A DNA stretch of 64,000 nucleotides. It comes from a virus. The stretch spans positions 22,969 to 86,968 of IMG/VR virus record IMGVR_UViG_3300033153_010610, one strand, 5' to 3'. The notes beneath the pieces were generated by a model that did no database searches, had not been told where the DNA came from, and saw only the letters and a list, made by a program, of their open reading frames with translations. Position 1 is the stretch's first letter; every line of letters begins with the position of its first letter. A program made the position numbers and the translations under genes. Of this stretch, positions 16,253 through 64,000 are shown in pieces.

Positions 16253-16257
16253 CATCA

Positions 16258-16299
16258 GATGATGCGCGTCGTCGCATGTTCCCCAAAGTGAGTTCCTGA
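16258..16299 (+). pseudogene. relic of the 3' end of the 15128-15736 gene
   Basis: These 42 bases repeat 15695-15736 with one mismatch and still encode D-D-A-R-R-R-M-F-P-K-V-S-S-stop. They have no start of their own and mark the left edge of a tandem duplication with a 563-bp period. Confidence 0.8.
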
Positions 16300-16311
16300 A
16301 GGAGATCTGGG

Positions 16312-39535: not shown

Positions 39536-42500
39536 CCACCGACTCTGACGTTCTAGGAACTGCGATACGGGACCAACTCGTCACCGACGGGCATATCGTC
39601 AATCCGGCCACCTTGAAGGGTGATGCGCTGCGCTCACACATGCGTACGCAGAACTACGATCGTCTGGAAGAGTGGTGGCAGTCGGTCGCCAAGCAACTGA
39701 GGTCTCTCACTGACTCCGTCACAGCCTCTGACGTCTCCTCAGACGCCTTCGATGAGGTTACAGCCACCAACGTCCAGACTGCCCTTGAACAACTCGGCAA
39801 CGCCTCCTCAATTCGCGTGGCTGCGCTCAATGGTCCTCAGTTCAACACCGTCCAAGAGGTCTTTGACATCACCCTCTCCGCGGGCATCGTCAGCGGAGGG
39901 GTTATCACCGACGATGGTGACGGGACCATCAGCGTGTCGGCCGGCGTAGGATTCATCCGAGCGACAGACTCTGATACCGCAGAGGTCTTGGCCTTCAGTT
40001 TCTCAGCGGAGAGCGGCACCCTAGTCAATCTCGTCGACAACTCTCTCAACTACGTCTACGTCGAGTACAATGCTGGCGTCCCCCGGATAGTTTCTGCGGC
40101 AACAGAGCCCACAAACCACAACATGAACGTGGTGCTCGGGTCCGTCCATCGAGCAGGGACTAACCTACATCCAACAGATCGCCGGGAACGTGTTGGCAAC
40201 ATTGCCCATCGCTTGTCGGAGCGGATGATTGGTGTTGACGGGCTGACTCATCAGACGGGCGGGATTGTAGGAGCGACTGGGGTTCGCAATCTATCGGCCA
40301 CCGCAGGTACGTGGTGGCTTGGCCTGAATGAGATCACCTCACGAGCATTCGATACGTCGGTAGGCGTCTTCCCAGACACGCTCATCACTTTCTATCGTGA
40401 TGGTGCTGGCGACTGGACGGTCTTCACCGACCCTCAGGTCGACAACACTCAGTACGACGATGGGTCTGGAGTGCTGGCCGCCCTCGGCGTGAATCGATAC
40501 GGCGTCCATTGGATCTTCATCGGTGTCGACGACCACATCTATTCGATATTCGGGCGTGGCAACTACACGCTGAACCAAGCAAATGACTCGGATGCTCCGG
40601 TCGACCTCCCACCCCATCTCCAGGAGAACCACGGCGCGCTCGCAGCCAAGGTCATCATTCAGGAGAGTGCAGCAGCGGTCACTTCGATTGAGTCGGCGTT
40701 CATCACCAAGCTCGCTTTCGGTGGTGTGACTGTTCATGCCGATCTGACTGGTCTAGTCGCTCCTGTTGATGATCATACTCAATACGTGCACGGGGCCGGC
40801 CGTGCCGGCGGCCAGGTCATCATTGGCGGCACAGGTGCCGGAGATGACCTCACGCTGCAGACGACATCGAATGCAGCCAAGGGCTCCTACCTGTTCTCGG
40901 AACTCACGACCAACGGGTTTGTGAAGACCTCGTCGGGTACCGGCGCCTTGTCAGTCTCAGCCAGTGTTGACCTGACTACCGACGTCACGGGCATCTTGCC
41001 CCTGGAGAATGGCGGGACTGAACTCGACGCCAGCGGTGTCACCAACGGTCAGTTGCTCATTGGTAATACGACAGGGAACGTGTTCGCATTGGCGACTCTG
41101 TCTGGTGCTGCCAACGAGATTGACATCGTCAACGGTGCATCGTCGGTCACGGTAGGTATCGTCAGCAGTCCTGTCTTCAGTGGTCAGCCGACAATCAGCG
41201 ACTACACGCTTGCCGGGCATGACCATTCCAACGTCGCTGGCGGAAGTCAGATCGACCACACCGTTCTGACGTCGAAAGGAACCAACACGCACGCCCAGGT
41301 CGACTCACACATAGCCGACGACTCCATCCACGATTCGTTCCCGCAGAACTTCTGGAACGGCTCGGTGCTCGAGACCATTTCGCTGGCCTTTACCGAGGCT
41401 GCCGGGACGATCTACGCGAACCTCGAAGGTGATGGCGCCACTGATATCACCTGTAGGTTTGCTGGGGTTGACTACACGTTCGACGCCACTCCGATCGCGA
41501 CACTTGCGTTGACCGCTGGCACAGATACCGTGCCGGTGAAAAACTACATCTACCTGACCGAGGCGGTAGGCGTAATCACACTGAACAAAAGCACGGCAGG
41601 TTTCCCGGCCACCCCGTTCTGTCCCATCGGTGAGGTCATCCTCCAGTCTGCCGCATCGTTTGCGGTCGACGGCGCGTTCAGTCACCAGAACTGGACCGAC
41701 CATATGGGGTCCGCTCCAGCGAGCGGGAACGGTCACCTTAGTCATCTGAACAAGAAGCTCCGGGCACTGGGTACCATCTGGAACTCCGGTGTCGTCCCGA
41801 CCCTGACTATCGATGTCGCTCCGACCCCCGACGACGTGTTCTTCTCCTGCACGGCCGGCGTAGTCTTTCAACTTCATACTCAGAGCTTCCCTGCCCTGGA
41901 TATGGACGCCGCCAGCGACCCGCTGTACGTCGTCAACGAGCCTGGCACGGCCTACAACCAGATCACTAACATCAACACCCTGACGCAGGACAGCGCGGGC
42001 GTAGGGCTGAAGAAGTACTTCAACGTCGTCATTTGGGCCTCGGCATCTAAAAGTGGCTCCGGCAACTCACAGTTGTTCATGAACCTACCGAGTGGGTCCT
42101 ACAACAGTTCTGCTGACGTGATTGCTGATGGATCCAGGTACACCAACTTCACGATTCCAGAGGACTTCGGTGGTACCGGCTTCCTGATCGCCGCCTACGC
42201 GCTCTACAATCTGGGGAACACTTGGACACTGATCCAGACCCAGGACCTGCGCGGCCAAATCCCCGGCAACATCGCGGGTGGCGGGCTCGCCCCGACCCAG
42301 GTCTTTCAGGACGATCAGTTCCTCATCCAAGACGACGGTGACACCACAGCTCAACTTGCCTTCCAGATCAGTGGCGTTACGACCCTGACGACCCGGACAG
42401 TCACGGTCCAGGATACTGACGGGACGATGGCCCTGCTTCAGGCGGGGGTACTCCCGCTTGCGCACGGCGGTACAGCTATCGACTCCTCGGGCGTAACCAA

Positions 42501-45500
42501 CGGTCAGTTGCTCATCGGAAACACGACGGGCAACGTGTTCGCCTTGGCAACGCTGTCTGGTGCTGCCAACGAAATAGACATCGTCAACGGCGCTTCGTCG
42601 GTCACGGTAGGTATCGTCAGCAGTCCTGTCTTCAGTGGTCAGCCGACAATCAGCGACTACACGCTTGCTGGGCACACCCACACCAACGCCGCTGGTGGTG
42701 GTCAACTCGACCACAACACGGCGCTCACTAACCTCGCAGTAGGCGACGTCCACACGCACTACGCGCTGTTGGCTGGACGGGCTGGCGGACAGGCGCTCTA
42801 TGGCGGTACCGCTGCTAGTGATGATTTGTGGTTGGGATCAACGTCCGACTTTGGGACGAAGGGTCATATCTACTTTGGTAGTGCATCAGCCTACGACGAG
42901 ACGAATGATTCCTGGGGTGTCGGAATCCTGACTCCAGATTCGGGAGTCGGATTGGAGATTGTGCGCGGAGGCTTGCAGGCTACCCAGATCAAGTTGCGCA
43001 CAAACACCACTAACCTCACTAACAAGTATTCTCAGATAAGCCAGGGTCACTACACAAACGCGAATGATGATGTGGCTCTGATTCGTGGCACGTCTAACTC
43101 GTCGAACAGCATCGTCTCCATTGGAGGCGGGAATTCTGACCTCAACGCGGCCACCCATCTGTATGTGTACACGGCGGCGAATACGGCAACCACGACCGGA
43201 ACACTCCGACTCTCAATAGACAAAACTGGGCTCACTAGAGTCAGCGACAGCGTCTCACACGCGAGTTCACACAGCTTAGCCGCCAACGACCTTCTCGTGG
43301 AAGGTGATGTTGAAGTAGACGGGACTGTTTGGCTGGATGGTGGCGCCAACCTCAACTCCACCACGCTGGCCGGAGATGACGCTGTCTCTGGAAATCTGAC
43401 GCTCTCGACCACATCTAACGGTACCAAGGGCAACTACATCCTCGAGGACTTGACCAGCAATGGGTTCGTCAAGACCAGCGGCGGGACTGGTACGCTCAGC
43501 ATATCTGCTGGGGTGGACCTGGCCGCAGACGTCACGGGGATACTCCCGCTGGAGAACGGAGGAACGGAACTCGACGCCAGCGGTGTCACCAACGGTCAGT
43601 TGCTCATCGGAAATACGACGGGGAACGTGTTCGCGTTGGCTACGTTGTCTGGTGCCGCAAACGAGATCGACATCGTCAACGGAGCGTCGTCGGTCACAGT
43701 CGGCATCGTCAGCAGTCCCATCTTCGGTGGTCAGCCGACGATCAGCGACTACACGCTTGCTGGGCACACCCACACCAACGCCGCTGGTGGCGGACAACTC
43801 GACCACAACACGGCGCTCACTAACCTCGCAGTAGGCGACGTCCATACGCACTACGCGCTGTTGGCTGGTCGGGTTGGTGGTCAAATCCTCATCGGTGGGA
43901 CAGCCGCTGGGAACGACCTCACTCTCCACACGACCTCCAACGTGTCTAAGGGTAGCTATTTCCTGACCGATCTGACGACCAATGGGTTCGTCAAGACGGG
44001 TGGAGGTACAGGACTACTCAGCGTCTCTACAGCGATCGATCTGACTACCGACGTCACGGGCATCTTGCCTCTGGAGAATGGTGGAACGGAACTCGACGCC
44101 AGCGGTGTAACCAACGGTCAGTTGCTCATCGGTAATACGACGGGGAACGTGTTCGCGTTGGCTACGCTGTCAGGCGCCGCTAACGAGATCGATATCACCA
44201 ACGGGGCGAGCTCAGTCACGGTCGGCATCGTCAGCAGTCCGACCTTGTCTGGTCAGCCGACGATCAGCGACTACACGCTTGCTGGGCACACCCACACCAA
44301 CGCCGCTGGTGGCGGACAACTCGACCACAACACAGCGCTCACCAACCTCGCCGTCGGCGACGTCCATACGCACTACGCGCTGTTAGCCGGAAGAACTGGC
44401 GGGCAGACTCTGTACGGCGGTGATGCCGCCAGTAACATCTTGTCGCTGAACAGCACATCTCACGCTACCGAGGGGTACGTGAGGATAGGGGACTCCGGAT
44501 CACCGTCTCACACGTTGACCAGCGTTACGGGCTCGCTTTTCGTAAATGGAAGGCTTGAAGTCGACAATATCGCGTACTTCGACAACAGCCTGTTCGCGTA
44601 CGGATCGTCGTACTTCTCTGGCGCGGTGAATGTTGCGGACGACATAAAGCTATCATTTGGTGGCGGTTTTGACGCCTCGCTTGAGTGGGATACCGGGCAA
44701 ACTAGCGATTCCCTACTGCTTGGCCTTGGCAACACCAGTCGTACGTTTATTGTCTGCGAGACAGTAGACATGGGTACGGATTTCGCCCATGCCGCACAGA
44801 CCAACCCGACGCTGTTCATCCAGAGTTCAGATGCGACCTCTGTTGCTGACTGGATTAGCCTCGCGCACGACCAGACAGACGCCGTCATCGCTACCGGTTC
44901 CGGAGACCTGTCGCTGCAGCCTGCAACTGGAATAGTTGCAGTAGTTGGTGGCGCGAGCATTGTACATGCCGCTGAAAGCGAACAGCTTGTTATACAAACC
45001 AACAAGACTAACAACACAACCAAAACAGGCAGCCTCTCGGTTGGACATTACACCAATGCCGAGGCTCCCCTGCTTATTGCCAGAGCAGCTTCTGGTTCTA
45101 CTGCAAGCACGATAACTTACGGTGGCGGAGACGCCAGCTTTCACGCGGCTACTCAACTCAACTTCTACACCACCACTACTATCACTGGTGGTGCCGGCAG
45201 CCTGCGCATGAGGATCTATGATGACGGGTACATCCTCTTAGGTACTGCTGCCCCGTCGGCAATTTCTTCGCCCGGTTCCGGTGACGTCGTCGTTGGGTCT
45301 GAACTCGAAGTGAATGGGATGGCCTGGCTTGAGGGCGGGGCCAACATGCTAGGCACTACGCTATCAGGAAACACCACATCCTACGGAGACCTGCAACTAG
45401 AGAGCACCACCCATGCAACGAAGGGAAACATCTACTTCGGGTCAGAATCTACATATGCCGAGACTGCTAATCGATGGGGAATCGGGACCTTAGTTCCTGA

Positions 45501-46572
45501 TGTTGCTTTGGATATTGTAGAATCTGCTACGGCAGCACATATACGTATCCAAAGCAACAGGACCAATTCCTCATCCAAAAGTGGACGAATAGCTATAGGG
45601 CACTACCTGACCGCTGAACAAGACATGGCCGTGTTTTATGGATACTCCAACGGCTCTAAGAATTACTTGTGCATTGGTGGAGGAACCACGGCCTTCAATG
45701 CCGCTACAGATGTAAGACTCTACACAACGGCTAACACGACAACTACCACTGGAACTCTCAGGCTCTCTATAGACGAGACTGGGCTTACTAGGATTAGCGA
45801 CAGCGATGCTCATGCTAGTAGCCACTCTTTAGCTTCTCTCGACCTCCTGGTAGAGGGAGACGTCGAGGTCGACGGCACGCTGTACGCTGATGGCAACACT
45901 CATACGGACGGATTTGAGATGGTCCCGAAGTGGACTGGGTCTTGGTGGGCTGAGCCCGGATCCACTGCTATTAATGGGGGCGGTGGTTTGGACTGGCCAA
46001 CAGTTTCCGCTAGTTCGACTCTTGGGGCGACAGATACAGCAAAGGATACTTTTTATTATCGGATTGGTACGTCATCGGTAACCAATAATGCGGCGACTAT
46101 CACTGATTCTGATTCCACACTTTTCGACGACCAAAGCAACCTTTTCTACTTTGCCGACATTCGGATGCACACTTCACTCTCTAGCATCAGAGTCTGGGTT
46201 GGGTTGTGCTACAACATGCCATCTCAGAATGACACCCCGTCCTCGCTTGGTTCGACTTATGATACGTCTGCCTTTAGGTTCTCGTCTGTTACGGATACTA
46301 ACTGGAGAGCTGTAGTCTCCAACGGGACAAGCACCTCGACTACAAATACAGGAGTAGCAGTAACTACGAGCACTTGGTATCGAATGGTCGTCCATCACGA
46401 TTATGCTGCCGGCCAAGTCAAATTCTACATAAATGAAACGTTGGTAGCCACGAAGAGTAGTTATCTTGCCAACAGTTACCTGAGACCGTTCATCAGCGTC
46501 ACTACCAAGACTACTACAGGGAAGTACCTCGGAATTAACAGAATGGTCCTACAGCATAAGAGGATTGCCTAG
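39532..46572 (+). CDS. giant tail fibre with internal repeats and C-terminal lectin-like domain
   Basis: This is a 2346-aa fibre. The N-terminal 80 residues (QNYDRLEEWWQSVAKQLRSL) attach to the baseplate. Four copies of a module appear: ILPLENGGTELDASGVTNGQ, LLIGNTTGNVFALATLSGAA and NEIDIVNGASSVTVGIVSSP. Three are followed by HTHTNAAGGGQLDHNTALTN and HTHYALLAGR. Later modules (ASSHSLA, LLVEGDVEVDGT) also repeat. The last 220 residues form a jelly-roll-type domain (STWYRMVVHHDYAAGQVKFY), similar to the end of the 52437 gene product. It binds the host surface. It starts as ATGA with the spike gene. Confidence 0.8.
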   Translation: MTTDSDVLGTAIRDQLVTDGHIVNPATLKGDALRSHMRTQNYDRLEEWWQSVAKQLRSLTDSVTASDVSSDAFDEVTATNVQTALEQLGNASSIRVAALNGPQFNTVQEVFDITLSAGIVSGGVITDDGDGTISVSAGVGFIRATDSDTAEVLAFSFSAESGTLVNLVDNSLNYVYVEYNAGVPRIVSAATEPTNHNMNVVLGSVHRAGTNLHPTDRRERVGNIAHRLSERMIGVDGLTHQTGGIVGATGVRNLSATAGTWWLGLNEITSRAFDTSVGVFPDTLITFYRDGAGDWTVFTDPQVDNTQYDDGSGVLAALGVNRYGVHWIFIGVDDHIYSIFGRGNYTLNQANDSDAPVDLPPHLQENHGALAAKVIIQESAAAVTSIESAFITKLAFGGVTVHADLTGLVAPVDDHTQYVHGAGRAGGQVIIGGTGAGDDLTLQTTSNAAKGSYLFSELTTNGFVKTSSGTGALSVSASVDLTTDVTGILPLENGGTELDASGVTNGQLLIGNTTGNVFALATLSGAANEIDIVNGASSVTVGIVSSPVFSGQPTISDYTLAGHDHSNVAGGSQIDHTVLTSKGTNTHAQVDSHIADDSIHDSFPQNFWNGSVLETISLAFTEAAGTIYANLEGDGATDITCRFAGVDYTFDATPIATLALTAGTDTVPVKNYIYLTEAVGVITLNKSTAGFPATPFCPIGEVILQSAASFAVDGAFSHQNWTDHMGSAPASGNGHLSHLNKKLRALGTIWNSGVVPTLTIDVAPTPDDVFFSCTAGVVFQLHTQSFPALDMDAASDPLYVVNEPGTAYNQITNINTLTQDSAGVGLKKYFNVVIWASASKSGSGNSQLFMNLPSGSYNSSADVIADGSRYTNFTIPEDFGGTGFLIAAYALYNLGNTWTLIQTQDLRGQIPGNIAGGGLAPTQVFQDDQFLIQDDGDTTAQLAFQISGVTTLTTRTVTVQDTDGTMALLQAGVLPLAHGGTAIDSSGVTNGQLLIGNTTGNVFALATLSGAANEIDIVNGASSVTVGIVSSPVFSGQPTISDYTLAGHTHTNAAGGGQLDHNTALTNLAVGDVHTHYALLAGRAGGQALYGGTAASDDLWLGSTSDFGTKGHIYFGSASAYDETNDSWGVGILTPDSGVGLEIVRGGLQATQIKLRTNTTNLTNKYSQISQGHYTNANDDVALIRGTSNSSNSIVSIGGGNSDLNAATHLYVYTAANTATTTGTLRLSIDKTGLTRVSDSVSHASSHSLAANDLLVEGDVEVDGTVWLDGGANLNSTTLAGDDAVSGNLTLSTTSNGTKGNYILEDLTSNGFVKTSGGTGTLSISAGVDLAADVTGILPLENGGTELDASGVTNGQLLIGNTTGNVFALATLSGAANEIDIVNGASSVTVGIVSSPIFGGQPTISDYTLAGHTHTNAAGGGQLDHNTALTNLAVGDVHTHYALLAGRVGGQILIGGTAAGNDLTLHTTSNVSKGSYFLTDLTTNGFVKTGGGTGLLSVSTAIDLTTDVTGILPLENGGTELDASGVTNGQLLIGNTTGNVFALATLSGAANEIDITNGASSVTVGIVSSPTLSGQPTISDYTLAGHTHTNAAGGGQLDHNTALTNLAVGDVHTHYALLAGRTGGQTLYGGDAASNILSLNSTSHATEGYVRIGDSGSPSHTLTSVTGSLFVNGRLEVDNIAYFDNSLFAYGSSYFSGAVNVADDIKLSFGGGFDASLEWDTGQTSDSLLLGLGNTSRTFIVCETVDMGTDFAHAAQTNPTLFIQSSDATSVADWISLAHDQTDAVIATGSGDLSLQPATGIVAVVGGASIVHAAESEQLVIQTNKTNNTTKTGSLSVGHYTNAEAPLLIARAASGSTASTITYGGGDASFHAATQLNFYTTTTITGGAGSLRMRIYDDGYILLGTAAPSAISSPGSGDVVVGSELEVNGMAWLEGGANMLGTTLSGNTTSYGDLQLESTTHATKGNIYFGSESTYAETANRWGIGTLVPDVALDIVESATAAHIRIQSNRTNSSSKSGRIAIGHYLTAEQDMAVFYGYSNGSKNYLCIGGGTTAFNAATDVRLYTTANTTTTTGTLRLSIDETGLTRISDSDAHASSHSLASLDLLVEGDVEVDGTLYADGNTHTDGFEMVPKWTGSWWAEPGSTAINGGGGLDWPTVSASSTLGATDTAKDTFYYRIGTSSVTNNAATITDSDSTLFDDQSNLFYFADIRMHTSLSSIRVWVGLCYNMPSQNDTPSSLGSTYDTSAFRFSSVTDTNWRAVVSNGTSTSTTNTGVAVTTSTWYRMVVHHDYAAGQVKFYINETLVATKSSYLANSYLRPFISVTTKTTTGKYLGINRMVLQHKRIA
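40981..44390 (+). repeat. four near-identical DNA repeats within the tail fibre gene
   Basis: Copies begin near 40981, 42450, 43528 and 44050, each about 240-340 bp. Stretches around AGCGACTACACGCTTGCTGG and ACCAACGCCGCTGG are almost identical between the last three copies. They encode the ENGGTELDASGVTNGQ module. They are suited to homologous recombination within the gene. Confidence 0.75.
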
Positions 46573-49869: not shown

Positions 49870-52428
49870 ATGGCGACGCCCATAGCAGTTGTTACAGCCC
49901 TCCCGCAGAGCTTTGCGGCATCAGCCTTGCCTCAGTTGGTAACGCTTGGGTCCGTTGGTTCGTTCGACGCCGATGGGTTTGCGATCACTGGGTATCAGTG
50001 GACGTTGCTGTACGCACCCCCTGGGTCTGCGGCGGCCCTATCTTCTGCTGTCGTGGCTGCGCCTACCTTCACCGCAGATGTCATCGGCAGTTATCTGTTC
50101 TTCCTGGTCGTCACCTCTACGGACCCAGACCCGACGAGCGATCAGTCCGAGATAGTGGCCAGGAGCGCGCCCAGTTCTGCGTTCGTCTCAGTGACTGCAG
50201 AGACCGCAAACTACGACTGGCACATCCCGGCGTCTGGTGAGCGGAACTGGGCTGACCATCTCTACGAGATTTTCACAGAACTCGATGTTGCGATTGGGCA
50301 GACCAATCTAGTCCAAGGCAGTTCGACATTCGGTGGAGATGTCGGCGCGACCACGATGCTATCGCCCCGAACGCTCACCGTTGAAGGCATCACCTGGCTC
50401 GACCAGGCGGTCGGTACGGGCTCTGTGGGGAATCCGCTGAGGATTGCTGGGCAGACAGGAAGCGACGCCTCAGGGGCCATTGCAGGTACAATCGGGGGCC
50501 TTGCTCGAGTGCGAGCTGGTGATGGTGGTTCTGCGGATGCAACGAATGCTGGAGGGACCTCTGCTGCAGGCGCACTTGCGTCCGTCGTTGCAGGCACCGG
50601 TGGAGACGGTGAAGATGGGGCCAACCCCCATGCTGCTGCTACTGGTGGTGGCCTCGACCTGTTCAGTGGGCCTGGTGGCGCTGGAGATGCAACGCAGGGT
50701 GGAGCCAGTGGCGCTGTCAACATCGCGAGCAGTCCAGCAGGCGTAATTGCTGGCGCTGCAGGCGTGTGGCAAGCGGCAGGAGCTCCCAGTGGTCAGGTAC
50801 TCATCCGGAGTGGTGTTCCGGGAGATGGTGTCAACGGTGGTACAGGCGTAGGCGTCGCAAACGGTGGAGCGTCTGGCGGTGTTGCTCTGAACAGCCGTGA
50901 CGGTGGTGCGGGTGATGCAGGTGCAGCCGGCTCAAGCGGTCGCGGTGGCGCGTCTGGCGGTGTCAGTGTCTACACCGGTGATGCAGGTGCAGGTGCTTCG
51001 GATGGCGTAGTGAACGTCACCGGTGCAAATGCTGGGGCTTTAGTCATCGGGGGTGGAGACGGAGCCGACGGGGCTGGCCCGGCTGCTGCTGGTGGATCTG
51101 GGGCCACGATTGCGATTACCGCCGGTGATGCTGGCGACCGGACTGGTGCTGGCGCCGCTGGTAGTCCTGGTCATGTTTATGTCCAGGCTGGTGATGGTGG
51201 AGCCGGTGGTGTCGGCGGTAACGTACGTATTCGTGGCGGACAGATAGGGACTGGTACTGCAACTGGCGATATCGTAGTTGGAGATACCCAGACCACGTCC
51301 GTCCTCATCGGGAAAGCTGCAGCCACACACAGCAGGTACTTTGAACTCGAGGGCTCGTTCTGGATTGATGGGGCACGCGGAACCACCAATTATATTCAGA
51401 CGCTCAACGGTACACTAGCTGCCGGTGACCCGGGTGACTTCACCATCCTTCTGGGGGATGGTGATAATAGCGATGGGGTCACTGGAGCCCAGTCAGGCGG
51501 GCTTCATCTCGTGTGGTCAGGTGACGGTGGTGATGGAGCCGTTGGCCACAATGCAGGTCAAGGCGCCAGCCAATCTTACCAAACAGGACGTGGTGGTGAT
51601 GCCACAGTCGTCACAGTCAATTCAGGCCAGGGCGGCGACTTCATTTGGGTTAGTGGTGGTGGTGGTGATGGTGGCGCTGCTACAGCTACCGCTCGAGATG
51701 CAGGAGATTGGCTCTCAACGCTTGGCACTGGCGGGAACGGGAGCACTGCAGCAGATGGTGGCCAGGGCGGGTCATACGACTTCATATCCGGGTTTGGCGG
51801 CCTCAACTCCTCTGGGCTCAATGGCGGTCTCGGGGGTGATTTCACCTTCACGGCCCGTAAGGGTGGGGACGCGAGTGCTGGCAATGGAGATGGCGGTAAA
51901 GGTGGGTCATTCTCGTTTGTAGGTGGGGCTGGAGGTACTGGGTTCGGGGCTGGTGTTGGTGGTGATGCAGGGGATATCTACATCACATGCCTAGCAGCTG
52001 GAGCGACACCAACTCCTGGAACCTACGGGCAGATCAAGATCGGCCATCAGTCAACCAGACTCACCACGATTGGGAGTGGTGGAGATGCTGGCCATGACGC
52101 CCGGATACTGGTAGACGGCGGGCTTGAGACCCGTACCGAAGACATTGCCATCACGTCCACCATCGACGCCTCAACCACCGTAGTGTTCGCGACTGCCGGC
52201 GGAATCACGCTTTCTATCCCGGCAGAGATGGTTCAGGCTGGACGCCACCTCATCATTAAAGACCGAAACGGTGCGGCTGCTGGAGCCAATATTTTGATCA
52301 ATACAGTGGGCGCGGAGCTCATCCAAATGGGGACTTCGTCTCTTGCTGCTGGAGTAACTCTGAGTATCAACTTCCAGGTCCTCCATCTAGTTTGCGATGG
52401 CACCCATTGGTACGACGTCAACGGTTAG
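49870..52428 (+). CDS. glycine-rich fibre/adhesin with N-terminal Ig-like domain
   Basis: This is an 852-aa protein. Residues 1-95 look like a PKD/Ig-type domain (FDADGFAITGYQWTLLYAPP, YLFFLVVTSTDPDPTSDQ). Residues 105-150 are a helical baseplate-attachment type segment (SGERNWADHLYEIFTELDVA). From about 190 to 700 the sequence is dominated by Gly/Ala/Asp loops (GDGGAGDAGAAGSSGRGGAS, GGDGGAATATARDAGDW). That is the character of polyglycine-helix adhesins such as T-even gp38. A final 100-residue beta domain ends it. A receptor-binding role is inferred. Confidence 0.7.
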   Translation: MATPIAVVTALPQSFAASALPQLVTLGSVGSFDADGFAITGYQWTLLYAPPGSAAALSSAVVAAPTFTADVIGSYLFFLVVTSTDPDPTSDQSEIVARSAPSSAFVSVTAETANYDWHIPASGERNWADHLYEIFTELDVAIGQTNLVQGSSTFGGDVGATTMLSPRTLTVEGITWLDQAVGTGSVGNPLRIAGQTGSDASGAIAGTIGGLARVRAGDGGSADATNAGGTSAAGALASVVAGTGGDGEDGANPHAAATGGGLDLFSGPGGAGDATQGGASGAVNIASSPAGVIAGAAGVWQAAGAPSGQVLIRSGVPGDGVNGGTGVGVANGGASGGVALNSRDGGAGDAGAAGSSGRGGASGGVSVYTGDAGAGASDGVVNVTGANAGALVIGGGDGADGAGPAAAGGSGATIAITAGDAGDRTGAGAAGSPGHVYVQAGDGGAGGVGGNVRIRGGQIGTGTATGDIVVGDTQTTSVLIGKAAATHSRYFELEGSFWIDGARGTTNYIQTLNGTLAAGDPGDFTILLGDGDNSDGVTGAQSGGLHLVWSGDGGDGAVGHNAGQGASQSYQTGRGGDATVVTVNSGQGGDFIWVSGGGGDGGAATATARDAGDWLSTLGTGGNGSTAADGGQGGSYDFISGFGGLNSSGLNGGLGGDFTFTARKGGDASAGNGDGGKGGSFSFVGGAGGTGFGAGVGGDAGDIYITCLAAGATPTPGTYGQIKIGHQSTRLTTIGSGGDAGHDARILVDGGLETRTEDIAITSTIDASTTVVFATAGGITLSIPAEMVQAGRHLIIKDRNGAAAGANILINTVGAELIQMGTSSLAAGVTLSINFQVLHLVCDGTHWYDVNG

Positions 52429-52436
52429 GAGCGGAC

Positions 52437-54323
52437 ATGTCCAAGATATTCTCGCAGTTCAATCCGCTCTTTGCACAGTCAACCCCATTCAGTTTGTTGG
52501 GGCTGACGGCCGCGGGAACGACCAATGACGCGTTCACCGTCAACAACGACGCGACCACTGCGAACGAGGATTCAAGCCTCCGGCTGCAGGGTGGTAATGG
52601 TGCGGCCATTGTTGAGCACAGGATAGAGCAGGACAGTAGCCTCGGTACGTTGTCGGCGTACAAGCTTGTCACAGGAGTGCAGGCCGGGACAATCATGTCC
52701 ATGGGTCAACGCACCCAGGTTGCGGACCTCGAGCAGACCCTGGAGTTCGCCGGCGGTGATGGGGTCACCCCTGTGGTGGCTTCTCTGACGTTCAGCGACA
52801 CCCTCGGGCAAATGCAGTACATGCAGGAGAGCCCGATTGGTACGTCGATTGACTCTCGACTGAAGGTTGGTGACCCGAGCTCAATTACCTCTCGTGATGG
52901 TAGCGTCGCGGTCGTGGGGGCCGACGGAACCACAGTCGCTGAGTTCACGATCGAGGTGGCTCCGGCAGGAATCACTCTCGGTTCTGCTCGTATCTCAGGT
53001 CCTGTCACGACTGCTGGACTCCCGACAACCATCTCTGGAGACGATGGTGTCACCACAGGAGACGGCGGTGCCCTGACCATCATCCCCGGTGACTCTCCTG
53101 CTGGGACCCTGGGGGTCCTGAACCTCGGGACGTCTCAGACCAGCGTCGTGAACCTCGGGCTCGCGGCAGGTACCAATACGGTACGTGGCGTCACCAACAT
53201 CGGGTCTGGAACAGGCGCTGTAGCAACAGGAGATGGAGACCTATACGTCTCCTCGAACTTCGAGTCGAACGGACCTTCTGTCTTCAAAGATACTCTGCTT
53301 TGCGAGGCAAACCTGACCCTTGCAGACGATCAGAGTCTGGTATTTGGCACCGGTGGGAACTCAGTACTAAAATGGTCCACAACTGAGACTCCTGATTCAG
53401 TTGTCTGGGGTCTTGATAACACGACCAAGTCTTTGATCTTGACCACAGCGACTAACGCTGGATTTGACCATGGTCATACTCATTCAGTTGGTCACCCATC
53501 ATTGATCATCTACAGCGTTGATCCTCCGTCGGCGGGCGACTGGCTCAAGATGTACCACGACGGAAATGGAATCATCCTAAGTGGTGGCCAGGGCATGTAC
53601 TTGCTCACCTCTGGCAACTCCGAGGAGCGTGAGTTTGTAGAAGTTGGGGCGCCTGTACTAAGGTGTGCGGGGAACCTAGACGTTGAAGGTTTTGACGTAC
53701 GCCCCCCACAGTATGCCGCCTGGCAATACGGTAATGCGACAACTGGGTGGACTACTGTAGGCGGAATTAGCACGCCAACCATCACCGCTGACGCGACCGC
53801 CAACTGGATCGGGACTGGAACATCCCCTGGGGAGCAGATCTCGACGTCAGCTATTTCAGGTAATGTCGCCAAGGTCTATGACAACACCGGCAACCATCCC
53901 ACTCTCGGGAAGTTCTTCTTCAGCGCGACAGTCACCACCAGAGCCAGTATTGCTGATGAGCGCATTTGGATCGGGATGTTCTTTAGTGACCCAACAGGTA
54001 GTGATACCCCGGCTGTTGACTTGATCGGATTCCGGTTTCGAGCCGCGGCTGATGCCAGTTGGTTCGGCGTCACCTCAGATGGCGCAACGCATACTGAAGT
54101 TGATCTGAGTACTAGCGTGGTAGTCAGTACCAGATATCATTTGGGTATGTTGTGTGATGTGAACTCCGGCTCAGTGAAATTCTACGTCAATGGGGCTTTC
54201 GTAGGTGAATCCACAACGAACCTGCCAAACTCAGCCACTTTGGCTGCATGGGCAGCCATCGAGACAACCACAACGACCGTGAAAGAAATGGTAGTCCACA
54301 ACGTCGTGATGCAGTGGAGATGA
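52437..54323 (+). CDS. tail fibre with C-terminal lectin-like domain
   Basis: This is a 628-aa protein. AGGAG precedes ATG 52437, so the longer frame into the previous gene is rejected. The N-terminal part (DAFTVNNDATTANEDSSLRL) is a strand-rich attachment region. The middle has WSTTETPDSVVWGLDNTTKS, matching a segment of the giant fibre. The last 190 residues are a jelly-roll-like domain (STRYHLGMLCDVNSGSVKFY, VNGAFVGESTTNLPNSATL), clearly related to the end of the 39532 product. It is probably a receptor-binding fibre. Confidence 0.72.
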   Translation: MSKIFSQFNPLFAQSTPFSLLGLTAAGTTNDAFTVNNDATTANEDSSLRLQGGNGAAIVEHRIEQDSSLGTLSAYKLVTGVQAGTIMSMGQRTQVADLEQTLEFAGGDGVTPVVASLTFSDTLGQMQYMQESPIGTSIDSRLKVGDPSSITSRDGSVAVVGADGTTVAEFTIEVAPAGITLGSARISGPVTTAGLPTTISGDDGVTTGDGGALTIIPGDSPAGTLGVLNLGTSQTSVVNLGLAAGTNTVRGVTNIGSGTGAVATGDGDLYVSSNFESNGPSVFKDTLLCEANLTLADDQSLVFGTGGNSVLKWSTTETPDSVVWGLDNTTKSLILTTATNAGFDHGHTHSVGHPSLIIYSVDPPSAGDWLKMYHDGNGIILSGGQGMYLLTSGNSEEREFVEVGAPVLRCAGNLDVEGFDVRPPQYAAWQYGNATTGWTTVGGISTPTITADATANWIGTGTSPGEQISTSAISGNVAKVYDNTGNHPTLGKFFFSATVTTRASIADERIWIGMFFSDPTGSDTPAVDLIGFRFRAAADASWFGVTSDGATHTEVDLSTSVVVSTRYHLGMLCDVNSGSVKFYVNGAFVGESTTNLPNSATLAAWAAIETTTTTVKEMVVHNVVMQWR

Positions 54324-56906: not shown

Positions 56907-59900
56907 ATGCCTAACGGAAACCTCGACCTGGTCAAGCTCCACTCGAATGAGCGGCTCGACATCCCTGACGCTCAGTCCATCGTGCGCAGCGTCCAGCGCC
57001 ACGCTCGAGCTTTGGTCAACAGCGCTGTCTCAGCGGCGGCTGTTCCCATCTCTGGCTTCACGGTAACCACTGCCACTCCAAACATCGTTGTCACGCGGAA
57101 CAGTGGTGCCTTCATCAGTTCTAACGACGATGACACTGCCCCATCTCCAGGCGGCCTTGGACAACTCTGCAACCAGGGGTCTACCTCTCAGAACGAGGAC
57201 ATGACTGCCAAAGGGGCCGGGACCTATCGTGTGTGGGTCAAATTCCAGGAAACAGAAGGGGATCAGGACAATCGAGCCTTCTGGGACCCGGGTACCACAC
57301 AGGAGTTCATCGATACGCCAAACACCCGCATCTTGGGTGGGTGGACCAAAGGGGCCTCTCTCGGAGCCGTTCCGTCTGGCACTGTCGAGTTAGCCCAGGT
57401 GTACTGGGATGGGGGTGGTGCCTTCAGTGCTCTCGTCGATACCCGCTCCGTCCTCTTTGAGGGACCTCTGGATGTTATTCAGTCATCGACTGGCCTTCCC
57501 GACTATAACCGGAACACAAACCGGAGCAGTAACCACCTGGCGACACTGCAAGAATTCGTCGAAGCTACTCTACGAGAAGTCCAGGACATCAAGTCGAACT
57601 TCGAGAACCGTGACGGCGCGAGCTCTGGGCACGCCTGGTTTACAGAGATTCCGAATGGGCTGTCGCTGAGGTCGGCTCCGTCGGTCATGTTCACGGTTGG
57701 AGATGGGACCACCAGCTTCGGCAACTTCAACATGACGGACGCTATCTACGTTGGTGATGCTGGCGCGTGCATCCAAGCCGCGTTGACGGCCCTGCCTGCT
57801 GCGGGCGGGACTATCGTCATCAAGCCAGGTCTCTACCCGATGGAGACTACGGTGGTGTTCCCCAACGCCAACGGCACGTTCAATATCATTGGGCACGGTC
57901 GGAACGCGACCCTTCTCACCTGGACGGCTGGCATCCCATCAGTCCCGATGTTCCAGGTCACAGCCGGCACAGCTCAGCCCATCGTGCATCTCGAGGGCAT
58001 GCGTTTGACCTATCCAGTGGGGGCTGCGCCAGCCACCTACGGCCTCGTGGTTACCATGTCGGGGTCCACCCCTGTTGGCGGTATTGCGGTTGAGCGAGTC
58101 TCGGTGCACGAGGTGGAATTCCTGGATGAGACCATCGGGACACACTCGGGAATCCAGGTCACTTCTGACGGTGGAGGACGGCAACTTCGCAGCCTGGAGG
58201 TGACCAGTTGTTCCTTTGAGAGCATGAACGCAGGGGTGGTCGCCTCGTTCATATCCGAAGCGTCATTGCTCTCGAACTGCATATTCCGAGACCACCGTGG
58301 ACCCATTGCTATCTCTGCGTCTGAGACACACAACTTCACTGTTGACGGGTGCAGGCTCGATGGTACCAACGCCGCGATCGTGCCGAAGTTGCGAGAGTCC
58401 CTAGCAGAGGGCACAACAATCCGTTCCTCGACTTTCCAGTTGTGTGGGATTGAAACTACCAGCAGTTCAGGAACCACCATCGAAGGATGTCTCATTGCCA
58501 CGACCACGGCGAATGAAGGCATCACCATCGACAGCGACAAAACGTCTGTAAATGGCTGCACGATTCGACGGCCATCTGGTGGTAGTGCAGACCCAGCCGT
58601 CTGGATCGGTAAGACGTCCTCGGCTAATGAGGTCCTCATCTCCAACTGCATCATCTCGAATGATGATGGTGGTGGGATCCTGTGCCAGGCGCCCATAGGA
58701 TTCTTCAACCACAACATCACCCTGTCCAATAACGTCCTCATCGAGGAGACCTACGGAGCTTCTTCAGCAGCGTCCTCAGGCATCCTGATTGAGCGAAGCC
58801 GGAATGTAGCCGTCACTGGGAACGTCATCAATCGAGTCGGTGATGTCGGGATTGACATCGGCTCCGCGACTGAGAACGTAGTGGTGTCCGGAAACCTCGT
58901 CATTGACGACGACTCCCAGGGTGGGAATGACGTTGCCGACCGGTCTCTACGAGAAGGTCTTCAAGTTAGGGTTGGGTCAAGTCGCGTGAATGTGACTGGC
59001 AACTCGTTCATCGGCTTAACTGAACTGGGCATGGGGATTGCGGCTGCAGAAGCTGTTGTGACTGGCAACTTGGTTGCTGACATCACGGGGGGTGTCGCTC
59101 AAGGTGGGGTCTCGTTGTCTGCAAACCGCATCAGTCTATCGAACACGACTATTCTGTCACCAACAGGCTATGGGATTGAAGTCTCAGGTGATGGGTGTCG
59201 AGTCTCAGGTGCGCTCATCTCGTCAAGTTCAGGACACGGGATTTCGGTGACCACTGCTGAGTGGTGTCAATTCTCAGACTGTTACATCAGCGGGACGGGG
59301 GCTGCAGGCGTTAACCTGATCGGCAAGGGAGAGGTGAACTCATTAACCAACATTCATCTGTCGAGCCCGGGAACTATTGGCTTCAACGTCAGCAATGAAG
59401 TTCAGATGGTTGGGTGTGTGGCGAATGATCCCGGGTCCGAAGCCCTGGTTACAGCCAACAACAGTCTCCTTCTCCTGACGAACTTCTACGCATCTGGACT
59501 CACCGCGGCTGGAGTGTCCAACAACGGTATCGACATCGGATCGGGGACGGTTCTTTCTGTACAGGGAGGCTACATCAAGGCACATCAGACTACTCCTTGT
59601 ACCGTCGCCTTCAACATCGGGACCACATGTTCAGGAAGTGTGTCTGGATTGTACATCTACGGGGATAGCTTGATGGCTATCGGAATGGCGGTGCTTGGAA
59701 ACGTCAAGGTGTCCGACTGCACCGTGAACTTCTGGGCGACCAACGGGTTCTCTGTGAATACAGACGATGGCCAACTGGTTGGGTGTACTGTTCTGGGTAG
59801 TCCTGTAGCAGGGGCCTTGTCATGCATTACATGTAGTGGCGCAGCCTCAATCATCGGTTGTCATGTAGAACCGGGTGCTGACACCATCATCGGAATCGCC

Positions 59901-60185
59901 TGCACCGGAGGAGTGAGACCGTCGCTAGTCACCGGGAATAGGATTGAACGGGGCGCAGGCGTGAACGTGGTCGTGATTGACATCGACAATTCAGCTGGTG
60001 CTGTCGTCACAAGCAATCGTTGCACCGGCGGAATTACCGGGACCATCGATCTGAATAGCCATAACGCGGGTAGTCTAGTAGTCGGGAACTTCCTGGGAGG
60101 CAATCCAGGTGGCGGTGGAGATGACCCTGCTATCGGGACTGGGGGTAATGACCTCCCCGCAACTATGTCGACGGTCAACAACTGA
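56907..60185 (+). CDS. right-handed beta-helix tail spike
   Basis: This is a 1092-aa protein. About 250 N-terminal residues form a virion-attachment part (NLDLVKLHSNERLDIPDAQS). Next is a pectate-lyase-like beginning (IQAALTALPAAGGTIVIKPG, YPMETTVVFPN). Then come hundreds of residues of short repeating coils (NNVLIEETYG, SRNVAVTGNVINRVGDVGID, ENVVVSGNLVIDDDS, SRVNVTGNSFIGL), the mark of a parallel beta-helix. Such spikes bind or cut host polysaccharide. No catalytic pair could be assigned from the sequence. Confidence 0.8.
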   Translation: MPNGNLDLVKLHSNERLDIPDAQSIVRSVQRHARALVNSAVSAAAVPISGFTVTTATPNIVVTRNSGAFISSNDDDTAPSPGGLGQLCNQGSTSQNEDMTAKGAGTYRVWVKFQETEGDQDNRAFWDPGTTQEFIDTPNTRILGGWTKGASLGAVPSGTVELAQVYWDGGGAFSALVDTRSVLFEGPLDVIQSSTGLPDYNRNTNRSSNHLATLQEFVEATLREVQDIKSNFENRDGASSGHAWFTEIPNGLSLRSAPSVMFTVGDGTTSFGNFNMTDAIYVGDAGACIQAALTALPAAGGTIVIKPGLYPMETTVVFPNANGTFNIIGHGRNATLLTWTAGIPSVPMFQVTAGTAQPIVHLEGMRLTYPVGAAPATYGLVVTMSGSTPVGGIAVERVSVHEVEFLDETIGTHSGIQVTSDGGGRQLRSLEVTSCSFESMNAGVVASFISEASLLSNCIFRDHRGPIAISASETHNFTVDGCRLDGTNAAIVPKLRESLAEGTTIRSSTFQLCGIETTSSSGTTIEGCLIATTTANEGITIDSDKTSVNGCTIRRPSGGSADPAVWIGKTSSANEVLISNCIISNDDGGGILCQAPIGFFNHNITLSNNVLIEETYGASSAASSGILIERSRNVAVTGNVINRVGDVGIDIGSATENVVVSGNLVIDDDSQGGNDVADRSLREGLQVRVGSSRVNVTGNSFIGLTELGMGIAAAEAVVTGNLVADITGGVAQGGVSLSANRISLSNTTILSPTGYGIEVSGDGCRVSGALISSSSGHGISVTTAEWCQFSDCYISGTGAAGVNLIGKGEVNSLTNIHLSSPGTIGFNVSNEVQMVGCVANDPGSEALVTANNSLLLLTNFYASGLTAAGVSNNGIDIGSGTVLSVQGGYIKAHQTTPCTVAFNIGTTCSGSVSGLYIYGDSLMAIGMAVLGNVKVSDCTVNFWATNGFSVNTDDGQLVGCTVLGSPVAGALSCITCSGAASIIGCHVEPGADTIIGIACTGGVRPSLVTGNRIERGAGVNVVVIDIDNSAGAVVTSNRCTGGITGTIDLNSHNAGSLVVGNFLGGNPGGGGDDPAIGTGGNDLPATMSTVNN

Positions 60186-60505
60186 TGACCGAAGAACAAC
60201 CACCCAACGACGCTCGAGTCTCCCGCAACCAGATCATGCTGGTGAGCGGTCTCATCACGACGGTCGCTGCCGGTGTGGCGTTTTTCCTCATGGAACTGAA
60301 CAGCAGTTCCCTTGAGACGATAGACCGTCTCCATGCGGCAGAGATATCCCGGATCGAGACGCAGGTTGAGTCGCTCGAGCAGAGAGAGCGTGACGTCATG
60401 CAGAGGGCTGAAACGTACCACTCGGTACGCGTGCAGGAGCTCAAGGACATGTTCAACGGCGTCCAGGAGTCCCTGATGGTGTGCCTCCAGGGGGCTGACG
60501 AATGA
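60185..60505 (+). CDS. single-span membrane protein with coiled coil (candidate lysis accessory protein)
   Basis: This is a 106-aa protein. A short polar N-terminus is followed by a hydrophobic span (MLVSGLITTVAAGVAFFLME, about residues 18-37) and then a long coiled coil (EISRIETQVESLEQRERDVM). One span with an external coiled coil resembles holin-accessory or i-spanin-type proteins, but no lysozyme gene lies beside it and it sits between spike genes. It overlaps both neighbours. Confidence 0.6.
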   Translation: MTEEQPPNDARVSRNQIMLVSGLITTVAAGVAFFLMELNSSSLETIDRLHAAEISRIETQVESLEQRERDVMQRAETYHSVRVQELKDMFNGVQESLMVCLQGADE

Positions 60506-61596
60506 CTCAAGTATGGCCCGTATCATCAGTGTGGCCCCCATCTGTAGGCGGCGGGGGAGGCGGCAGTCTGCTGGAGATCCCCGATTCTGGAGTCCTGTAC
60601 GACGACATCGTCACCCTCCAATCGACCCCTGGGTCGGCGGGCGGCGCGCGCGCGGTCCTCCTTATCAACGACACAGACTGGCGTTACGACGACACCTTGT
60701 TGCGGTGGATTTCGCCCGTCGCGTACGAACTGAGTTTGGCGGCGGGGGGCTTCGCACTCGAAGCTAGAATAAGTGGGACGGCGGACCCGGTCGCCGCCGA
60801 GGGCTGGACTAACGTAGGGGACCCGCCCGTTTACAATGTCCGCGGACGAATCAAACTGTTGAATTTCGTAGGGGCAACGTCTGCGCACTCGGTGGACGCC
60901 GGGGGGACGGTCTACGGACCCGTGACCGAAGCCAACGAGGAGACGGCCCTCGCGTCGCTTCAGACTCTAATCGAAGCCGGGGAGTCGGGGTCGTCTTGCA
61001 CAATCTGGGGCACCGGGGCTGAAGCCCGGATGGTAGTCGCGGCGGTCGACAGTCTCGTAGCGTCCACGAACACGGTAGTGCTGGGCGACGGGCTTCCGTC
61101 CCTCTGGTGTGGGGACGCGGCACACAATCAGTCCTACGTCCGGAGAACCGGGTGGAACTGGACTGCAACCGGAGCAGTCACCATTCATTGCGGGTGGATA
61201 GGCGTTGCGGAGACTTGGACCGGGTCGGGGGCTGCGGCTGCGGTGATTCAGGCTTATCCCGGGACTTCTTCCCCCATCGCCCTCGGCGTCGCCAATGAAC
61301 CCGCGGGGCTCCAATGGCGGGCCGTGGTGTCGTCGTTTAAGTATGGGGTCCATGAATGGGCGCCTATCACGCCCGGGCAACCCGAGTGGATAGAATGGGT
61401 GACGACCGTCGGGTGTGATATCGACGGGGGGACCTACGACACCGTAGCCGCTATCATCATGCGAAACGGGAAACTATGCGCGAACCTGGCAACCGCCGGT
61501 ACGTGCGTCACCACGGATTGGACGTACGTCGGTGTGGTAGGTGGGGACATTGAATCGTTCTACCGGGACATCACGTTCGGGTGGGTGAACCGGTGA
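60502..61596 (+). CDS. modular tail protein, member 1 of three
   Basis: This is a 364-aa protein. It opens with the tag VWPPSVGGGGGG, shared in part with two later genes. Central residues about 115-165 hold the common module (SVDAGGTVYGPVTEANEETA, LIEAGESGSSCTIWGTGAEA). The C-terminal 170 residues are a strand-rich domain with Trp and paired Cys (GNWNWT-type strands, TTVGCDIDGGTYDT), different from its relatives. It is probably a surface or receptor-binding protein. ATGA overlap couples it to the membrane protein gene. Confidence 0.65.
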   Translation: MTQVWPVSSVWPPSVGGGGGGSLLEIPDSGVLYDDIVTLQSTPGSAGGARAVLLINDTDWRYDDTLLRWISPVAYELSLAAGGFALEARISGTADPVAAEGWTNVGDPPVYNVRGRIKLLNFVGATSAHSVDAGGTVYGPVTEANEETALASLQTLIEAGESGSSCTIWGTGAEARMVVAAVDSLVASTNTVVLGDGLPSLWCGDAAHNQSYVRRTGWNWTATGAVTIHCGWIGVAETWTGSGAAAAVIQAYPGTSSPIALGVANEPAGLQWRAVVSSFKYGVHEWAPITPGQPEWIEWVTTVGCDIDGGTYDTVAAIIMRNGKLCANLATAGTCVTTDWTYVGVVGGDIESFYRDITFGWVNR

Positions 61597-61952
61597 TTTT
61601 TGAACCCCAACGCGCGGCCTATGTCATCCGGTACCTGCGGCCCACCGTGGCGCAGATTGTGGTCGCGGTGGGGCTTCGGTTCGTGGGGAACCGACTCCGC
61701 TTTGTCGACACTGCAACGGGACATAGACACTCATTCAGGGTCGGGAACTTCATTCAGGACGAGTTAAATCACTTCGTAGCAGAGCGTACTGACGGGACTG
61801 ACGGTGAGCGAGTTAGGGTGCGTAGATTACGGCGCGAGGACTGGACCGACGTAGGGTGGATCATCGACCGGCCACACGACATTCGCACCCATGACGAAGC
61901 CTATGATGCATCTAGAGAGAGGTTGCGTGTACGTCACAACCTCGATGATTGA
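61593..61952 (+). CDS. hypothetical protein within the modular tail gene cluster
   Basis: This is a 119-aa, very basic protein starting at GTG 61593, which overlaps the preceding stop as GTGA; an earlier GTG at 61581 is possible. The sequence begins MIFEPQRAAYVIRYLRPTVA and ends with Arg-rich segments (RVRVRRLRREDWTDVGW). It lacks the shared VWPP tag. The role is unknown; being interposed between two related fibre genes suggests a chaperone or attachment function, by inference. Confidence 0.55.
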   Translation: MIFEPQRAAYVIRYLRPTVAQIVVAVGLRFVGNRLRFVDTATGHRHSFRVGNFIQDELNHFVAERTDGTDGERVRVRRLRREDWTDVGWIIDRPHDIRTHDEAYDASRERLRVRHNLDD

Positions 61953-61967
61953 TACGGAGACCGACCA

Positions 61968-62996
61968 ATGACAGCAGTACGTGTATGGCCTCCGAGTAGA
62001 GTGGCTCCCGTGGTAGGGGCTCCTAGCACGCCGCCCCTAACCCCCACCGCCTGGGCGTCGCGCGATGAGTCTACGCTCGCGGACGATGCCTACTTTCTAG
62101 ACAGTGCGGGGAAGCTGTACCAACAGAAGGCGAACACAGGGCCTGGTGGGTCCCGCCTGGTCGAAGCCAGAATGGCGGAGGCTGGTTGTGTGCCTCGCTA
62201 CTACTTCGACGGCACCCAGCTCCCGTCTGCCGTGTCGGGCGACTGGTCCGAGGTAACGGCAGGGTCGGGGGCAGTGGGGCTCCAATTCCCGTTCAAACTT
62301 GATAATTTTGTCGCCTTGACTTCGACGCACGCGGTCACGATAAACGGCACATCGTACCCAGTCACCGCGGGCGCGACAGAGGAGGCAACTTTTGCGCTGC
62401 TAGAAATCGATATTGAGGCAGGGGAGGCCGGCTCGGACCTGGTGATTTCGGGCACCGGGCCGGCGGCTTATGCCGTCATGATAGCAGGCGTGAACACCTA
62501 CGCGGCCGGAACCAATACCAGCATTAGCGCAGCGCAGCCACAGTGGATCCGCATCACGCACACCCCACTGTCGGCGGATGGCGGGTATCTACTTTGGACG
62601 CACGGGCTGACGGATCAGAGTTGGTACATCCGATTTCAGTTGCTGACCACGATCACTGGCGTTGCGGGGGCAGCGTGGCCAAGTTGCTGGATCGAGAACG
62701 ATACAGAGTTGGCCACGCTTGGCTGGGGAGGAGCAGCCGGCCTGTTCCGTAACTCACTGGGGACGCCAGTCGTGCAGACAGTTCTCACCGCAGCCACCGA
62801 GCGCCTAATAGAGGTAAGCTGGGATTACGCGGCGGACAATTTCGCCGCGTACGTTGACGGCGCGCCTGTCCTGACCAGTACCAACGACGGATTTGCTACC
62901 GCTGGGGCTCTCAAGAGGCTGATCCTGGGCGATGCCGCGTCTCTTGAGTCCGTCGGGACAACGCTAATCCGCGAACTGCTGGTGTGCCATGATTGA
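61968..62996 (+). CDS. modular tail protein, member 2 of three
   Basis: This is a 342-aa protein with N-terminal tag VRVWPPSRVAPVVGAPSTP. The shared module is at about 120-165 (AVTINGTSYPVTAGATEEAT, IEAGEAGSDLVISGTGPAA). The C-terminal part looks like a concanavalin-type jelly roll (SWYIRFQLLTTITGVAGAAW, IEVSWDYAADNFAAYVDGAP). The pattern of constant start and centre with a distinct end matches the genes on either side. A receptor-binding role is inferred. Confidence 0.65.
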   Translation: MTAVRVWPPSRVAPVVGAPSTPPLTPTAWASRDESTLADDAYFLDSAGKLYQQKANTGPGGSRLVEARMAEAGCVPRYYFDGTQLPSAVSGDWSEVTAGSGAVGLQFPFKLDNFVALTSTHAVTINGTSYPVTAGATEEATFALLEIDIEAGEAGSDLVISGTGPAAYAVMIAGVNTYAAGTNTSISAAQPQWIRITHTPLSADGGYLLWTHGLTDQSWYIRFQLLTTITGVAGAAWPSCWIENDTELATLGWGGAAGLFRNSLGTPVVQTVLTAATERLIEVSWDYAADNFAAYVDGAPVLTSTNDGFATAGALKRLILGDAASLESVGTTLIRELLVCHD

Positions 62997-63041
62997 GCAA
63001 GGGCAGCGCACCGTATACGTCACCCTCTCCAGGAGTCTCTG

Positions 63042-64000
63042 ATGTCCGCAATCCAAGTATGGCCTCCGGGCGACGTGGCCCCGGTGGTAGGGGCGGCTGC
63101 TGTAACCGCAGTCTTCACCGCATTTTCGGAAATCGAGATCGCGGACAACGTAGGCAACACCCACGTTCGGACGACGGATGGGCGCGCCTACACGGTGGTA
63201 CAAGACGGCGCATACATCGTGGCGCTTCCGTATCATCTGGTAGCGGCGGGAGCGGTCATTGCCACCGCCATGGACGGCTACGCCCTGCCATCTACGGTGG
63301 ACGCCCTATGGTCGGAGAATGTGGTAGCAGGCGGCGTAGCGCCCTATCTGGAGGCTACTTACGCGCTCTCCGCTTTCGCCGCGGGTGTCTCCTCGCACAG
63401 TATCACCGTGAACGGAACGGCGTACCCAACGACCCCTGCGGGCGCGACAGAGCAGGCCACGCTCACGACTCTAAAGGGTCTAATAGAGGCCGGCGAAGCA
63501 GGCTCAACATTCGCCGTCACGGGTACCGGTGCAGCAGCACGCGGCGCACTAGCCGGCTCTGCGGTCATATCGCACGCAGCCACAACGAACGTCACCCAGT
63601 CAGACCCCTGGATAGTCTGCGATAGCGCGGCCAACGCCGCAGACGGCTCATTTTTATCCATGGCCCCAGCTGCGAGCCCTGTACATGGTACTGTGCATAT
63701 GTATCAGCGTGCGACGGCCATCTATGTGGCCACGCTGACGGGGACCGATGGCCACGGTATGGACCTGGCAACGGGGACCGGCGGGGGGCGATGGGTCCAG
63801 GCTTTTTGTAGCGCGAGCCCATACGCGTTCACGTCTAAATCTGCGGCAACGGTTGTAGAGTCGTATCCTGCGACGACACAGCGAGAAATTGAATTGATCG
63901 TGACGATAGCTGCGGCGGGGGGCGCGATAGACAACGGAAACGCGCACGATTCCGTCACGCTCCTAGTGGACGGGTGGCCACAACCGGCATGGCAGCTGGC
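63042..64000 (+). CDS. modular tail protein, member 3 of three (3' end outside window)
   Basis: This frame is open from ATG 63042 to the window edge (319 codons and counting). It begins MSAIQVWPPGDVAPVVGAAA, the same tag as member 2. The module SHSITVNGTAYPTTPAGATE followed by LIEAGEAGSTFAVTGTGAAA repeats that of members 1 and 2. The C-terminal part seen (SAATVVESYPATTQREIELI, VTLLVDGWPQP) resembles a jelly roll. CAGGAG precedes the start by 7 bases. Confidence 0.7.
   Translation, partial: MSAIQVWPPGDVAPVVGAAAVTAVFTAFSEIEIADNVGNTHVRTTDGRAYTVVQDGAYIVALPYHLVAAGAVIATAMDGYALPSTVDALWSENVVAGGVAPYLEATYALSAFAAGVSSHSITVNGTAYPTTPAGATEQATLTTLKGLIEAGEAGSTFAVTGTGAAARGALAGSAVISHAATTNVTQSDPWIVCDSAANAADGSFLSMAPAASPVHGTVHMYQRATAIYVATLTGTDGHGMDLATGTGGGRWVQAFCSASPYAFTSKSAATVVESYPATTQREIELIVTIAAAGGAIDNGNAHDSVTLLVDGWPQPAWQL

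Follow-up and report, generated by a model that had tools for sequence, protein, structure and literature searches.

Introduction

Some phages carry several receptor-binding proteins. The locus described here raises the question of whether three small proteins, encoded next to one another, use a common part for attachment and different parts for binding. The genes lie in a window of 64,000 bases that forms the final portion of an 86,968-bp viral record. The end of the window is thus also the end of the record (base 86,968), and no overlap between the record ends was found. The original prediction was of three modular surface proteins, with a constant start and centre but variable ends, displayed on a common platform. 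We compared the N-terminal, central and C-terminal parts of the proteins pairwise, against composition-preserving shuffles, and searched for relatives of each.

Results

The gene cluster and its surroundings

Because portal, sheath, baseplate and beta-helix genes lie upstream, the source is an uncultured contractile-tailed phage (a myovirus). The three genes close its tail/baseplate block on the downstream side. The main features are as follows.

16837: portal gene, 5′ of the gene cluster
28503–31031: tail sheath gene (842 aa; phrog_279), 5′ of the cluster
46629: tail-tube-initiator/baseplate protein gene (profile match), 5′ of the cluster
48458: baseplate J/baseplate wedge gene (profile matches), 5′ of the cluster
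56907–60185, + strand: right-handed beta-helix protein, tailspike/tail-fibre-like, 1092 aa (Pfam Beta_helix, E 3.9e-27)
60185–60505, + strand: 106-aa protein with a hydrophobic segment on its N-terminal side, then a charged region; between the beta-helix gene and gene 1
60502–61596, + strand: gene 1, 364 aa, pI 4.4
60502–60540, + strand: gene 1 tag, MTQVWPVSSVWPP
60829–61074, + strand: gene 1 central module, residues 110–191
61075–61593, + strand: gene 1 C-terminus, residues 192–364, no similarity to the other two
61593–61952, + strand: 119-aa basic protein, pI 9.6, GTG start; between genes 1 and 2
61968–62996, + strand: gene 2, 342 aa, pI 4.5, GGAG 5′ of the ATG
61968–62027, + strand: gene 2 tag, residues 1–20, common with gene 3
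62271–62519, + strand: gene 2 central module, residues 102–184
62520–62993, + strand: gene 2 C-terminus, residues 185–342, weak Laminin_G_3/ConA-like match
63042–63998, + strand: gene 3, 319 aa read, open at the 3′ end (record end), AGGAG 5′ of the ATG
63042–63101, + strand: gene 3 tag, residues 1–20
63339–63590, + strand: gene 3 central module, residues 100–183
63591–63998, + strand: gene 3 C-terminus, incomplete

All three predicted open reading frames were recovered at the expected starts and lengths, and the basic 119-aa gene noted between the first two is real. The beta-helix gene and the 106-aa gene are joined by a TGATG overlap, and the 106-aa gene and gene 1 by an ATGA overlap. The stop codon of gene 1 (TGA) overlaps the GTG start of the 119-aa gene in the sequence GTGA. 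Hence, stop/start overlaps run unbroken from the beta-helix gene to the 119-aa gene; genes 2 and 3 then follow with ribosome-binding sequences of the GGAG type. Profile searches gave no confident family for the 106-aa protein, and searches of Pfam and further profile collections gave no match for the 119-aa protein. GC content rises across the cluster, from about 0.55–0.57 to 0.61–0.62. Between positions 56600 and 64000 there were no promoter-like sites on the + strand, and terminator-like sites were not above chance. This fits a single transcription unit but is no proof of one. Since genes 1–3 follow the portal, sheath, baseplate J and beta-helix genes, and gene 1 belongs to an operon with stop/start overlaps, their products are probably virion proteins.

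Other genes of the block were also inspected. The sheath is distantly similar to sheaths of Bordetella, Pseudomonas, Staphylococcus, Enterococcus and Listeria phages. At 842 aa it far exceeds the 489 positions of the phrog_279 model, and so it carries large insertions. Just 5′ of the portal gene, at 15749–16818, two tandem genes encode proteins of 167 and 168 aa with near-identical starts. A 1320-aa protein (34554–38516) weakly matches profiles for tail lysins and for endolysins/amidases and is perhaps a tail-associated cell-wall hydrolase. A 2346-aa protein (39532–46572) has several matches to tail-fibre family phrog_31660 (E 2.7e-13). In the 852-aa protein encoded at 49870–52428, long Gly/Ala/Asp-rich repeats of the GGDGG type separate a start with a sub-threshold PKD-like match (E 0.0023) from a compact end.

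The central module is homologous in all three proteins

The predicted common centre is borne out. A module of ~83 residues is homologous in all three pairs, with Z values of 16–21 and amino-acid identities of 43–45%; none of 400 shuffles reached the observed score. Genes 2 and 3 matched each other with an E-value of 5e-27. Third codon positions in the module are only 28–41% identical, and the copies are therefore old. An AlphaFold model of the three-row alignment was poor (pLDDT 30). Its predicted order of strand-strand-helix-strand-strand would fit a compact alpha/beta domain. Each of the three small, acidic proteins has one copy of the module, and all are biased in composition towards A, G, T and V. 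The series had also been predicted to run on past the window; the record stops inside gene 3, and a protein search of the whole 86,968-bp record returned only these three members and no fourth copy. An apparent extra module at 51425–51922 (E 0.008) was discounted, because it is encoded out of frame within the 49870 gene.

The N-terminal tag is common to all three, the wider N-terminus to two

In a six-frame translation of the window, V-W-P-P occurs only at the starts of genes 1, 2 and 3. At the DNA level, GTNTGGCCNCC is likewise found only at these three gene starts. Three or more matches were seen in 5 of 100 shuffles, so the motif by itself is only mildly unusual and it is the placement at three starts that counts. 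Over the N-terminal 100 residues, genes 2 and 3 are homologous (Z 16.8). Conversely, gene 1 compared with either gave a Z of about 1. Residues 1–20 gave a Z value of 11.4 for the pair of genes 2 and 3, against about 3 for comparisons that include gene 1. Residues ~58–101 are constant in genes 2 and 3 only (Z 8.3). An ungapped alignment of genes 2 and 3 shows 75% identity over their first 53 nt. Thus, the expectation of a constant start holds strongly for genes 2 and 3 only whereas, in gene 1, it extends little beyond VWPP and the remaining N-terminus is unrelated by sequence.

The C-termini differ in sequence

As predicted, the ends are variable. No similarity was detected among the three C-termini by local alignment (Z about 1), by semi-global alignment (Z 0.5, 1.2 and 2.1) or by hhalign. 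The C-terminus of gene 2 matched Laminin_G_3 (PF13385, a ConA-like lectin family) with an E-value of 0.017 and 15.7 bits, against a curated cut-off of 27.6 bits. No Pfam match was found for the C-termini of genes 1 and 3, nor any PHROG match for that of gene 1. A single-sequence AlphaFold model of the 159-aa gene 2 C-terminus was mostly strands, with a pLDDT of 32 that is too low to inform. The sole PDB match of this C-terminus (phmmer, E 0.0034), a reductoisomerase, was judged to be unrelated. The weak Laminin_G_3 match means that all three C-termini could be one fold, and so what look like different tips may conceal a single diverged fold.

Elsewhere in the late block, the C-terminus of the protein encoded at 52437–54323 also matched Laminin_G_3. 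The E-value (4e-4) was better than that for gene 2, and the match was again below the curated cut-off. This late structural protein also weakly matches a tail-fibre protein of a Manatee Spring siphovirus (MW202657, E 2e-4).

Searches for relatives

Pfam, PHROGs and NCBIfam gave nothing significant for genes 1–3, in agreement with the earlier view that the family could not be named. Nor were relatives found in IMG/VR, GTDB genomes or a phage collection, using tblastn or pattern scans. A degenerate-DNA scan of IMG/VR for E-A-G-E-x-G...G-T-G returned 23 stretches, none homologous by the module HMM. Within the sensitivity of HMM searches of Pfam, PHROGs and NCBIfam, genes 1–3 contain no T4gp10-like/XD branch, anchor or depolymerase domain. 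No trimerisation, chaperone or enzymatic domain was recognised, no homologue of known function was found, and the sheath core (phrog_279) was not matched. These genes are a new sequence family, so far private to this phage, that probably does a job of a known kind.

A possible link to a sheath domain

In an hmmsearch, positions 5–78 of the 83-position module profile aligned with residues 82–166 of a 'putative structural protein' of Shigella phage Sf14 (PDB 9c39/9c3b; E 0.17). Felix-O1-type phages have homologues of this protein under the annotation tail sheath or DUF3383, and gp39 is given as tail sheath in the Sf14 paper (PMC11821841). Hence, we infer that chain H of 9c39/9c3b is gp39. Aligned by hhalign with seven Felix-O1-type sheath domains, the module alignment gave a probability of 75% (score 32.5, 44 columns). 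For 60 column-shuffled versions of the module, the probability was at most 0.9% and the score at most 15.0. We take a relationship between the module and the Felix-O1-type sheath accessory domain (Sf14 residues 82–170) to be likely but unproven. Genes 1–3 are not themselves sheaths, unlike the Felix-O1-type proteins, and this phage has a separate sheath at 28503–31031, which the module HMM did not match. A combined profile matched phi92 gp130 with an E-value of 0.09, which is not significant. If real, the sheath-domain link would hint at where such proteins dock.

Discussion

Genes 1–3 have a paralogous module, a common tag, diverged C-termini and a position in the late operon. We favour the reading that they encode a small group of paralogous adhesins on the tail surface, docked by module and tag and binding through their C-termini, with a probability of about 0.55. 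The genes would be expressed late, along with the baseplate and beta-helix genes. Most likely, the N-terminal tag and the ~83-residue module would dock each protein at a common tail or baseplate site, leaving the divergent C-terminal ~135–170 residues pointing outward, where they would bind glycans or proteins on the host surface, possibly as lectin-like beta-sandwiches. The assignment of docking and binding parts follows by analogy with the Klebsiella and Ackermannviridae systems considered below. The weak Laminin_G_3 matches of gene 2 and of the 52437–54323 protein, and the likeness of the module to a Felix-O1-type sheath domain, also speak for the adhesin reading. Presence in the virion, the end that attaches and receptor binding are likewise what we infer. 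Of the predicted surface-protein series, the paralogous set with attachment-like parts stands, and it fits both the sequence and the site beside baseplate- and tailspike-like genes; the C-termini may be receptor-binding tips, and may be different domains. Counting against the adhesin reading, no homologue of known function and no trimerisation, chaperone or enzymatic domain was recognised, the lectin match is sub-threshold and confined to one of the three proteins, and no relatives were found that display C-terminal swapping. The tag and module might just as well act in assembly at another site, such as the neck or head surface.

Chance resemblance between low-complexity Ala/Gly/Thr-rich proteins would suit the biased composition, but it is refuted by the shuffles and by the match between genes 2 and 3, and we give it practically no weight. 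Old gene duplications are a much more serious explanation, with odds only a little short of even. Here, the proteins would form a single family that has the same fold from end to end (the module plus a ConA/LamG-like sandwich, for instance), in which the C-termini diverged faster and no swapping took place. The age of the module copies and the weak Laminin_G_3 match on gene 2 agree with this, as do the similar lengths of the C-termini and a hydrophobic hairpin-like stretch, seen by eye, that each of them has at a similar offset. Yet no similarity between the C-termini could be detected by any of the three methods, and those of genes 1 and 3 have no Pfam match at all. Duplication of this kind can be compatible with the adhesin reading, but would drop the idea of different tips. 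The proteins might instead decorate the virion or act as fibre accessories (neck whiskers, head fibres or sheath decoration), with no role in host range and the module binding sheath or another structural protein. Resemblance of the module to the Felix-O1-type sheath accessory domain points this way, as does the small, acidic, single-module form of the proteins. However, the genes sit 3′ of the baseplate and beta-helix genes and not among head or neck genes, and we consider this explanation unlikely. A more specific version of the adhesin reading is less probable again. In this version, a domain related to the accessory domain of contractile tail sheaths would have taken on a new role, as the dock for small host-binding proteins that form an expandable set and differ in their C-terminal binders. 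The lineage would be one for which the collections searched contain no sequenced relative.

Known systems provide a framework for the adhesin reading. In Klebsiella phages with multiple receptor-binding proteins (RBPs), short conserved N-terminal peptides are the proposed attachment points of secondary RBPs (PMC6872550). Genes 1–3 are similar in being neighbouring tail genes that have a short common N-terminal peptide and differ downstream. Unlike the Klebsiella proteins, which have only the short peptide in common, they also have the central module. They lack recognised anchor, T4gp10-like or depolymerase domains and are small, at about 320–364 aa. The TSP1–4 proteins of Ackermannviridae attach by conserved N-terminal domains (XD/TD) and recognise hosts by variable C-termini (PMC11414711). 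Again, the likeness is in the tail gene cluster, the conserved N-terminal parts and the variable C-terminal parts. The difference is that genes 1–3 have no sequence match to phage records and no beta-helix match in their C-termini. ConA-like lectins of the Laminin_G_3 family offer a sub-threshold likeness for gene 2 and the 52437–54323 protein, and none for genes 1 and 3.

Multi-RBP systems combine a common N-terminal attachment sequence with divergent C-terminal parts. Here, the former is present in gene 1 as the tag alone and in genes 2 and 3 also as a wider N-terminus; the latter are divergent by sequence (Z about 1), with one fold possible. The tested genes have no close relative in the collections searched. 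If their C-termini bind, this phage would present no fewer than three alternative proteins for host recognition on a single scaffold, in a compact version of the multi-RBP apparatus.
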